This document shows positions 14,558-45,168 of a DNA stretch of 64,000 bases, in pieces. How positions within the stretch are numbered: the stretch's first letter is position 1; the number at the start of each line of letters is the position of its first letter. This stretch comes from Anaerocolumna sp. MB42-C2 (GTDB lineage Bacteria > Bacillota > Clostridia > Lachnospirales > Lachnospiraceae). The position numbers and the translations under genes are program-made. The stretch lies in NCBI RefSeq assembly GCF_030913705.1, contig NZ_CP133190.1, forward strand, positions 4,117,501-4,181,500, in the 5' to 3' direction. The notes under the pieces were generated by a model that was not told the origin of the DNA, ran no database searches, and saw nothing but the letters and a program-made list of their open reading frames with translations.

Positions 14558-14841
14558 CATATCAAAGGAGTTAATTTATATAAACTTAACTCGGATTTGA
14601 CCAGCAACACAGGTTACGATTACATGATCCAGAAATTCTATTATTATACCAACAATATTGACAGAAACTTAAGTGTATGCTACTATAATGTATGCTTATT
14701 ATAAAAACCGTATAATTATTCAGTTAGTTATACAGGAAACAAAGGGTTCGTAGTGTAAATCGTTTCGCCAAGAACATGCGAGACATTGGAAGAATAACAA
14801 AAGACATGCGGGCCATTAAAAAAATAATAATTGAAAGGAAT
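14558..14841. other. Intergenic region with a second short coding scrap
   Basis: In the same frame as the GH172 remnant, an open stretch continues to a stop near 14700 (contains NSDLTSNTGYDYMIQKFYYY, no clear family). TTGACA near 14669 and TATAAT near 14695 are separated by 20 bp, which is long for sigma-A, so promoter activity is uncertain. The rest has no gene. Confidence 0.4.
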
Positions 14842-14922
14842 GCCACAAATTGATTCTTTCACATTATTTATTTGTGGCAATAACACATCTGTAAGCAGAT
14901 GCGTTATGCAATGGGTATTTAA
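14842..14922 (+). promoter_or_regulatory. Conserved structured leader, copy 1
   Basis: Stem P1 is GCCACAAAT (14842-14850) with ATTTGTGGC (14870-14878), enclosing TGATTCTTTCAC. The linker AA leads to stem P2, TAACACATCTG (14881-14891) with CAGATGCGTTA (14896-14906). TGCAATGGGT follows and supplies the ribosome site 6 bp before the ATG at 14923. The same arrangement lies before the genes at 36084 and 44994. Because the ribosome site is part of the element, control of translation is likely. No known riboswitch class was recognised. Confidence 0.7.
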
Positions 14923-15726
14923 ATGAAAAAAATTATCAGGTTACTAGTTATTACAATGCTGATGGTTGTATTTACTGCCGGATGTGCAAAAAATTCAGAA
15001 AAAGATACTTCACTGGACGATATTAAGGCAAAAGGCAAACTTGTTTTAGGGTTGGATGATGCATTTCCGCCGATGGGGTTTAAAGCTGATAATCAGGAAA
15101 TCGTAGGGTTTGATATTGATGTAGCAAGAGAGGTATGCAAACGTATGGGCATTGAACTTATGATTCAGCCAATCAGCTGGGATGCAAAAGAACTGGAACT
15201 CTCTACGAAAAATATTGACTGTATCTGGAATGGTATGACTTATAATGAAGATAGAGCCAAATCAATGACCTTAAGTATTCCTTACATGAAAAATACCCAG
15301 GTAGCCGTAGTTCTGGCAAACAGTGATGTTAATTCCCTTGCTGACCTTGCGGGTAAAGTAGTGGCAATTCAGAACGGTTCAACTGCATCAGATGCAATTG
15401 AAGCCAATGAAGACTTTAAAAAATCCTTAAAGGAATTAGTAAAAGTAGATGACAATGTACAAGCGCTTTTAGATCTTAAGGTTTCCGGTTCCGACGCGGT
15501 TGTTATGGATGAGGTTGTTGCCCGTTATTATACGGAGAAAGAAGAAGGAACTTATAAAATCCTGGATGAAACTTTAGCGGATGAAGATTATGTAGTAGGT
15601 TTTCGAAAAGGTGATAAATCACTGTGTGCCGAAGTGGAGAAATATTTAAAGGAAATGGCAGCAGATGGTACACTGGCTAAAATCAGTGAGACCTGGTTTG
15701 GTAAAGATCTTACTACGGTAGAATAA
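14923..15726 (+). CDS. Amino-acid ABC transporter, substrate-binding lipoprotein (second system)
   Basis: The 267-residue SBP_bac_3 protein has lipobox FTAGC (lipidated Cys21). The mature domain begins LDDIKAKGKLVLGLDDAF and has the family features FDIDVAREVCKRMG, IDCIWNGMTYNEDR and VVMDEVVARYY. It binds a polar amino acid outside the membrane, perhaps cystine, glutamine or similar (not decidable). It has the structured leader in front. Its permease and ATPase follow after a 446-bp gap with a terminator and a new promoter. Confidence 0.93.
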   Translation: MKKIIRLLVITMLMVVFTAGCAKNSEKDTSLDDIKAKGKLVLGLDDAFPPMGFKADNQEIVGFDIDVAREVCKRMGIELMIQPISWDAKELELSTKNIDCIWNGMTYNEDRAKSMTLSIPYMKNTQVAVVLANSDVNSLADLAGKVVAIQNGSTASDAIEANEDFKKSLKELVKVDDNVQALLDLKVSGSDAVVMDEVVARYYTEKEEGTYKILDETLADEDYVVGFRKGDKSLCAEVEKYLKEMAADGTLAKISETWFGKDLTTVE

Positions 15727-16823: not shown

Positions 16824-16838
16824 TCGGAGGATGTAAAA

Positions 16839-17600
16839 TTGAGTATATTAGAAGTAAAGAATTTAGAAAAAAGTTTTGATAACCTTCAGGTTTTAAAAGA
16901 TATCTCCTTAAAGGTAGAAAACGGTGAGATTATATCCATTATCGGTTCTTCCGGTTCCGGTAAATCTACACTTTTGAGATGTTTAAACCGATTGGAAACC
17001 GTAGACTCGGGCGAAATTATAGTGGATGGGGATGTTATGGTATCTACCGTAAACGGCAAAAGCGTATATGCCGGTGAATCCGTTCTAAAAGATATTCGTA
17101 TGAAAACCGGACTGGTATTTCAGAATTTTAATCTATTTCCTCATTATAATGTATTAAGAAACATTACGGAAGCACCAATCTATGCAGCAGGAATTCCAAA
17201 AGAAGAAGCAGAGAAAACAGCTTACGAATTATTAGATAAATTAGGGCTGCGGGATAAAGCGGAAGCTTATCCTTATCAATTATCAGGCGGTCAGTCACAG
17301 CGTGTATCTATTGCCCGTGCTCTGGCCTTAAAACCTAAAATTTTATTTTTTGACGAACCGACTTCTGCACTGGATCCGGAGCTAACCGGAGAAGTTTTAA
17401 AGGTGATCCGGTCTTTAACCAGTCTAAATATGACAATGATTATAGTTACCCATGAAATGGATTTTGCGAAAGATATTTCAAACCGTATGATTTTTATGGA
17501 TCAGGGTGTGATTGTGGAAGATTCCACACCCGCAGAATTATTTAACTCAAATAATGAGCGTACCAAGGCTTTTTTAGGTAAGTTCCATGAAGCCATATAG
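16839..17600 (+). CDS. Amino-acid ABC transporter ATP-binding protein (second system)
   Basis: The 253-residue ATPase begins with TTG behind GGAGG (8 bp); no ATG fits. Walker A is GSSGSGKST, the signature LSGGQSQR, Walker [12 protein letters not shown], and the His switch VTHEM. It is close to the 5612 ATPase in all motifs. It energises the 14923/16173 importer. All motifs intact. Confidence 0.95.
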
Positions 17601-35889: not shown

Positions 35890-36007
35890 CAGAATAAGCA
35901 TCTAGTATCATTACTTCGATGCATTAATTTAATTAGTAAATATTGCTTACAAAGAATAAATTTAAAATTAATAAGGAAGAAACCAAAAAAATATAAAAGG
36001 AAAGGCA

Positions 36008-36083
36008 GCCACAATGTGATTCGTTCACATAGATTAATTGGCAGTATCCCAGCACAGTCTGGGATATATAATGGGTGTAAAAT
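36008..36083 (+). promoter_or_regulatory. Conserved structured leader, copy 2
   Basis: GCCACAAT (36008-36015) pairs with ATTGGC (36037-36042) with a small bulge, enclosing TGATTCGTTCAC. AG links to the second stem TATCCCAG/CTGGGATA (36045-36052, 36059-36066). AATGGGTGT then supplies the ribosome site 8 bp before the ATG at 36084. It aligns with copies at 14842 and 45092. Confidence 0.7.
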
Positions 36084-44994: not shown

Positions 44995-45092
44995 ATTTCA
45001 CACCTATTGCATATCGCAGGCAGGCCTGCGATACTGCCACAGAATAAAATGCGAAACAAAAGTTTCGCAGAGTGAAAGAATCATACAGTGGC
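44995..45092 (-). promoter_or_regulatory. Conserved structured leader, copy 3
   Basis: Read on the minus strand: GCCAC (45092-45088), TGATTCTTTCAC, a TGCGAAAC/GTTTCGCA hairpin (45069-45050), and closing GTGGC (45040-45036). AG links to the second stem TATCGCAGG/CCTGCGATA (45033-45012). TGCAATAGGTG then precedes the ATG at 44994 at the same spacing as in the other copies. The extra inner hairpin is unique to this copy. Confidence 0.7.
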
Positions 45093-45168
45093 AACCTTTC
45101 CTTTTCAAAATTTTCTGTCACTCCTTCTCCCCGGTATATATTTTTGTAAATGTTAACAATGAAATAAT

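Follow-up and report, generated by a model that had tools for sequence, protein, structure and literature searches.

A Structured RNA Unit Before the Start Codons of Unrelated Genes in Anaerocolumna Is Probably a Mobile Ribosome-Binding Module

Introduction

Miniature mobile elements, such as MITEs, the BOX and RUP elements and the PATEs of the IS200/IS605 group, are short, non-coding and dispersed in near-identical copies; they also occur in tandem and leave filled and empty sites. The unit described here, three copies of which lie in a window of 64,000 nt (the whole stretch of DNA analysed) of the Anaerocolumna sp. MB42-C2 genome, resembles them in all these respects. Unlike MITEs and PATEs, however, it has no terminal inverted repeats, neither a consistent target duplication nor a partner transposase was found for it in the searches reported below, and it lies in sense and at start codons. 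Another point of comparison is provided by split or pseudoknotted ribosome-binding sites, including those of T4 gene 38 and the ribosomal-protein leaders, where folded RNA puts a ribosome-binding sequence near the AUG. The unit also folds near the AUG, but those leaders are features of single genes, whereas the unit is dispersed and apparently mobile.

The nearest published pattern seen is that of the TAACTGA heptamer repeats preceding start codons in marine Beggiatoaceae (PMC4679880). As presented in the relevant part of that paper, these are direct repeats of seven bases, unlike the unit in length and structure, the latter being a 107-nt pseudoknot with covariation; the same part holds no empty-site evidence, whereas filled and empty sites exist for the unit. 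No description of the element was found in the open-access literature, to which the search was confined, subscription journals being outside its scope.

The original prediction could name no riboswitch with this consensus. This agrees with the Rfam search at curated thresholds (the window and 20 further loci) and at a permissive threshold (copy 1), where no family explains the unit. The sole overlap is with Clostridiales-1 RNA (RF01699) at positions 1390-1548 of locus L319 (51.4 bits, cut-off 48), and this RNA has no match in the window, in a stretch with the type B unit described below or in the other 19 loci scanned. The idea that the unit is itself Clostridiales-1 RNA was rejected: the body of the match lies upstream of the unit and adjoins it, and only its last, poorly aligned part overlaps. 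At this locus, Clostridiales-1 RNA and the unit stand one directly after the other before a single gene, with a T-box further upstream.

The Three Window Copies and Their Fold

Alignment of the three copies gives the arrangement that had been foreseen, namely common GCCAC, GATTCKTTCAC, GGCA-TA, a hairpin and AATRGGT, at the positions and in the orientations claimed, and each copy ends directly before a start codon (Table 1). A covariance model built from 20 copies, the three window copies among them, recovers all three. According to Pfam, the downstream genes encode a family-3 solute-binding protein, a short-chain dehydrogenase and a methyltransferase, and are unrelated, as had also been claimed.

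Table 1. Coordinates of the unit copies and associated sites in the window
Feature	Position	Strand	Remarks
Copy 1, unit	14814-14922	+	before amino-acid-binding protein gene, start 14923; model match 14814-14923
Copy 1, Y stem	14842-14850/14870-14878	+	
Copy 1, X3′ box GATTCTTTCAC	14852-14862	+	
Copy 1, Z hairpin	14881-14891/14896-14906	+	
Copy 1, 3′ AATGGGT	14910-14916	+	
Reciprocal empty site	16826-16841	+	GGAGG 16826-16830 to start TTG 16839, ABC ATPase gene
Copy 2, unit	35977-36083	+	before short-chain dehydrogenase gene, start 36084; model match 35977-36083
Copy 2, Y stem (reduced)	GCCA 36008-36011/TGGC 36039-36042	+	
Copy 2, X3′ box	36018-36028	+	
Copy 2, Z hairpin	36044-36052/36059-36067	+	stem with compensatory change
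Copy 2, AATGGGTG	36070-36077	+	
Copy 3, unit	44995-45123	-	before methyltransferase gene, start 44994; model match 45123-44995
Copy 3, X stem	45123-45113/45080-45070	-	
Copy 3, Y stem	45092-45088/45040-45036	-	
Copy 3, Z hairpin	about 45034-45011	-	
Presumed original Shine-Dalgarno GGGGAG	45127-45132	-	methyltransferase gene; copy 3 now separates GGGGAG from ATG

The unit is typically about 107-130 nt long. Stem X (about 11 bp) and stem Y (GCCACA/TGTGGC) together form an H-type pseudoknot; hairpin Z comes next and, after it, a short tail, GCAATGGGTGTAA. Two details of the original prediction had to be corrected. The 5′ limit was set too far downstream, since the true start, with GAGTGAAAGAAAA, lies about 30 nt further upstream. 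TTCAC was considered unpaired, but GATTC[T/G]TTCAC holds TTCTTTCACTC, the 3′ side of X, which is complementary to the strand at the unit start and pairs, with compensatory changes, with an upstream partner of the GAGTGAAAGAA type. The misreading arose because the upstream X strand has decayed in copies 1 and 2; the orthologue of copy 1 in A. sedimenticola (G006) is an intact unit, where the strand is retained as GTGTGAAAGAA. Copy 3 possesses an additional hairpin within loop L3, and its Shine-Dalgarno sequence, AATAGGTG, is weak.

The fold was assessed on 92 distinct copies of the own genome, the stronger of at least 127 matches, and stem X was left out of the models used for alignment. The two strands of X pair in 85.3% of cells, and the whole fold in 90.5%, compared with 80.1% after shuffling and 35.6-46.0% in slid controls. 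Cells with double changes number 280 versus 111.9 ± 9.3 in shuffles, a level reached in none of 500, and the paired substitutions noticed in the stems of three copies hold across the family. The mean uninterrupted length of X is 9.11 with its own partner and 7.82 with partners swapped between units; the corresponding values for 25 units from other genera are 8.76 and 7.23, and their X stems are compensated as well, e.g., GGTTAGAAGAA/TTCTTCTAACT.

Such hairpins could also matter as single-stranded DNA. This would be the case if the unit were a miniature transposable element of the PATE or REP kind acting at the DNA level, with no role for the RNA fold; we consider this alternative unlikely, though it deserves serious attention. 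The excess of G.U over A.C pairs on the sense strand (89 versus 58, excluding the closing column of Z, which is itself mostly G.U) speaks against it. In stem X taken alone the excess is small (45 versus 34), which therefore leaves room for selection on single-stranded DNA.

Distribution of the Family

In the 6.44-Mb genome a gapped pattern occurs 12 times, against zero for the backward control, and the covariance model, with 150 candidates scored, yields at least 127 matches at E ≤ 1. One continuous 400-kb stretch of this genome contains 13 matches alongside 341 ORFs of 100 aa or more, and 400 kb of A. sedimenticola contains seven units. Matches are present in all 14 other Anaerocolumna genomes, the counts being lower bounds, as 63 candidates per genome were scored; G003 and G004 have at least 2-3 each, and these are weak. 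With model R3, made from 79 diverse copies, matches at E ≤ 0.01 were found in at least 19 of 397 Lachnospiraceae genomes (nine candidates scored in each), three of Anaerocolumna and 16 of other genera, where about 4 of 397 would be expected by chance, since the E-values apply per genome. The matches in the other genera are weaker. Eleven of the 16 other genera reach E < 1e-4. Among 391 genomes from the class, with nine candidates per genome scored, R3 at E ≤ 0.001 gave none beyond the own genome. The phage and plasmid collections searched gave no match; on one viral contig, a unit is present in front of a small gene.

Units were also seen in metagenome-assembled contigs labelled Pelosinus and Herbinix (L103 and L095), from a sample that also gave Anaerocolumna bins. 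The former contig is likely to be mis-binned, judging by its unit and gene, which are nearly the same as those of L100 from Anaerocolumna bin.60.

Position Before Start Codons and Target Genes

The units lie in sense orientation directly before the starts of unrelated genes. A fixed rule was applied, namely a start at -4 to +4 relative to the unit's end, followed by an open frame of 45 codons or more or by one that reaches the end of the available DNA. The units that comply are 87 of 92 in the own genome, 55 of 60 in relatives and 21 of 25 in other genera, compared with 351 of 5000 random places. Among the own copies that do not comply, L047 and L131 are upstream tandem members, L132, before nrdR, has a duplicated end and the start at +16, and L185 and L049 precede ORFs of 32 and 16 codons, L049 having only this ORF. 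The exceptions of relatives are L124, L089, L102 and the kdpF-like L100 and L103, the last two being nearly one record twice; those of other genera are an upstream tandem member (L310), a unit with the start at -16 (L329) and two without such an ORF (L321 and L324). The predicted outcome of a covariance search, many matches directly upstream of start codons with covariation rather than random placement, was obtained. Together with the covariation, this position sustains the view of a selected structured RNA at translation starts.

All 92 own copies thus stand at a start codon, a short ORF or in a tandem. If the unit acted at the DNA level, such siting would reflect a Shine-Dalgarno-like target combined with the loss of harmful insertions; that not one of 92 copies lies elsewhere argues against this, although tandem units do occur, as they do among DNA elements. 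A contrasting case is a classical inverted-repeat MITE of A. sedimenticola, which is intergenic and has no lock to start codons. The terminal inverted repeats of this MITE-like family are GTAATTGCGAAAC...GTTTCGCAATTAC, and 20 upstream regions in 400 kb were noticed to contain it (L240-L259).

NCBIfam confirms nine of ten checked targets, miaA, rbfA, accC, nrdR, dxr, pyrH, mnmE, nusB and ispF; the tenth, an spmA-like gene, has no NCBIfam match and was named by eye. Targets of related function or of a shared regulon, as expected for a riboswitch or leader, were not found among these unrelated genes. Upstream of 49 of the 92 copies, a long open frame on the same strand ends within 150 nt, and many units may therefore sit inside operons.

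Other structured units were observed nearby. A type B unit, recognised by eye, comprises a 5′ hairpin, a likely nested pseudoknot in GAAGAA..TTCTTC and a GCCGC..GCGGC hairpin. It often lies directly upstream of the unit described here, type A (L005, L006, L015 and L062), and once directly before a gene (L016). An apparent type B unit precedes the orthologue of copy 1 in A. sedimenticola, and the corresponding window stretch, 14720-14813, is degenerate and contains TCGCCAAGAACATGC. In L178 and L186, too, copies are preceded by stretches of this kind, which may represent another subfamily. In L211 (G008), within the 150 nt before the spmA-like start, two tandem copies of a different family of about 75 nt, with a GTTGAAA..TTTCAAC hairpin, a second hairpin and GATGGGAGTTTAA, lie directly before the start codon, with the same siting.

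Filled and Empty Sites

The insertion point is the spacer between the Shine-Dalgarno sequence and the start codon, so that the order is GGAGGTAA, unit, A(AT)ATG. A. sedimenticola reads GAATGAGAGGTAA-ACATG at the spmA-like gene, against GAATGAGAGGTAA-unit-ACATG in the own genome; at degV, CAGGGGGATAA-AAATGGC faces CAGGGGGATAA-unit-AATGGC; at the site of copy 3, CGGGGAGAA-ATATG faces CGGGGAGAA-unit-ATATG. In the last case, GGGGAGAA stands directly before ATATG in A. sedimenticola, where the methyltransferase gene is broken further on and its start region aligns. The reciprocal case is the ABC ATPase gene close downstream of the gene of copy 1: its GGAGG-to-start spacer is uninterrupted in the window, whereas A. 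sedimenticola carries a 148-nt unit there. These are the four clean sites, three filled in the own genome and one reciprocal; a permease site (L062) is left uncounted, its upstream DNA being unalignable. By the general criterion of filled and empty orthologous sites, found at these four places, the family appears to be mobile.

Elsewhere in the genome, units near-identical to copy 3 precede two other genes, one chemotaxis-receptor-like and one kduD-like. Because of these copies, a recent gain is favoured for copy 3, which appears to be a young copy. The history of the spmA-like site may be different. A unit is present there in G007, broken by another inverted-repeat insertion, and relics were recognised by eye in G011, G012 and G014, only that of G012 being scored, weakly (E 0.046). 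Precise loss in A. sedimenticola instead of gain is possible at this site, and our confidence in the preferred explanation is lowered by the broken unit and the relics. The insertion in G007 (L208:1156-1500) has inverted ends AGGGCGTGTCTGAAAA/TTTTCAGACACGCCCT.

Unit positions are mostly lineage-specific. Only 2 of 60 copies from relatives precede an orthologue of any of the 92 own targets (cinA, 66% identity, and bioY, 91%; weaker matches of 23-43% were judged paralogues), and one of the seven units in 400 kb of A. sedimenticola does so. Positions common to species include those at the binding protein, bioY and cinA, copy 1 being common to the own genome and A. sedimenticola. Among 14 genomes with a readable miaA start region, two have units (the own genome and A. 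sedimenticola, with a differing loop), one has a relic and 11 have none. The relic, L201 of G009, is a truncated unit whose frame apparently runs on into miaA, which would extend the protein at its N-terminus (the model score is weak, E 0.076).

A vertically inherited cis-regulatory RNA, a riboswitch or protein-binding leader with a large regulon, would account for the strong covariation, the fixed spacing to the start codon and the positions shared between species. Such a reading, already weakened by the empty sites with intact Shine-Dalgarno sequences, is improbable in view of the unrelated downstream genes, the near-identical copies within one genome and the 58 of 60 relatives' copies that precede genes without an orthologue among the own targets. 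The original term "translation leader" stands insofar as the starts of translation are where this structured RNA lies. To see in it nothing but a fixed regulatory leader is insufficient, because near-identical copies precede unrelated genes and a related species has empty sites, and the copies seem to form a mobile dispersed family.

The clean edges of the filled and empty sites would also suit an element acting at the DNA level. The ends of the unit differ from those of MITEs: terminal inverted repeats are absent, the unit beginning with GAGTGAAAG and ending with GGGTGTAA, and X lies within the 5′ half. The flanks at the three empty sites are TAA/TAA, TAA/TAA and GAA/GAA; across 78 copies with good scores, however, TAA is almost constant on the right while the left base at -3 is variable, and no consistent target-site duplication emerges. 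In IS200/IS605 elements, the right end resembles the target. The unit shares this trait, GGGTGTAA resembling GGAGGTAA, which favours a DNA-level origin. Against it, the IS200/IS605 transposase (PF01797) has no match in the own genome, nor in G006, G010 or G011, where units are numerous; it is above the cut-off in 6 of 15 genomes of the genus. An IS200/IS605 (PATE) origin was rejected on the lack of a Y1 transposase match in the own genome. An ORF-bearing copy was sought with R2, a model of the 5′ half, and none was found among the 150 candidates scored, so that neither search yielded a mobilising enzyme. Used as a sequence finder only, R2 added one place (2802794-2802846) absent from the R1 matches.

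Ribosome-Binding Sequences

The original prediction placed the ribosome-binding site inside the element, and the unit does bring its own, weak Shine-Dalgarno sequence. In Anaerocolumna a 3′ match of at least 5 nt is present in 26 of 152 units, against 30 of 42 ordinary gene starts of the window; units of other genera sometimes end in a full Shine-Dalgarno sequence, e.g., GCAGGAGGTGTAAAAATG (L316 and L332). The 3′ tail resembles the sequence left of the unit and, weak as it is in Anaerocolumna, seems to behave as a replacement Shine-Dalgarno sequence. On the left flank, a Shine-Dalgarno match of at least 5 nt within 16 nt upstream was found in 25 of the 48 best-scoring copies from relatives and in 2 of 48 control stretches. 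The own copies are hardly above the control (8 versus 5 for the best 30; 13 versus 7 of 61 for the other 62).

The strongest match within the unit is loop L1 (AGAAAGG), where at least 5 nt match the complement of the 16S tail in 149 of 152 units. AGAAAGGA, in the loop between X and Y, is presumably complementary, without mismatch, to the 3′ tail of 16S rRNA; the canonical sequence was used here, the tail not being found in the genome DNA examined. This suggests that L1 may serve as a standby or split ribosome-binding site. A helix between L1 and the 3′ tail, which would move the internal Shine-Dalgarno sequence next to the AUG, was rejected: the longest helices are about equal to shuffled ones (5.26 versus 5.08 in other genera and 5.15 versus 5.12 in own copies).

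A Shine-Dalgarno sequence often precedes GAGTG, and the GTG of stem X could start a leader peptide (uORF) acting as an attenuator. Translated in this frame, GATTCNTTCAC could give D-S-F-T, the third base being free, and the frame is open to the unit's end in 19 of 73 units, versus 2 and 10 of 92 in the other frames. Yet in 54 of the 73 units where this start is present, the frame meets a stop before the unit ends; moreover, the unit ends are spread over the three frames (28/23/22), and the start is missing from 19 of 92 units. A coding leader peptide was rejected on these counts, and we regard it as very improbable.

Discussion

The explanation that we favour, drawn from comparison of sequences, is that all three leaders are probably copies of a single small element that moves and whose product is an RNA structure. 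It would be a structured ribosome-binding module. The unit would enter the spacer between a gene's Shine-Dalgarno sequence and its start codon. The gene's own Shine-Dalgarno sequence would be moved away and the 3′ end of the unit would take over; the displaced sequence may later fade. Because its 3′ end resembles the sequence upstream of it, the unit would leave a usable start site, and even housekeeping genes could therefore tolerate it. Through AGAAAGGA, the folded unit may offer the 30S subunit a standby or split docking site, from which the AUG would then be reached. The conserved fold may be kept for the efficiency of initiation, possibly under a common signal, or for the mobilising machinery.

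A bolder version, which we hold only tentatively and are inclined to doubt, is that of a transposable ribosome-binding site that colonises the spacer between the Shine-Dalgarno sequence and the AUG, recruits the 30S subunit via its pseudoknot loop and imposes shared translational control. If this is true, any gene entered would come under that control, at the density of 13 matches per 400 kb and 341 ORFs, and the unit could rewire translation with promoters and proteins unchanged. Usual mobile elements break or flank genes, whereas this one would give a gene a new folded start region. The family would also offer about a hundred natural variants of a leader, in some cases with an empty orthologous site as control, for studies of mRNA structure and translation. 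It also raises the question of which machinery may find Shine-Dalgarno sequences in DNA or mRNA.
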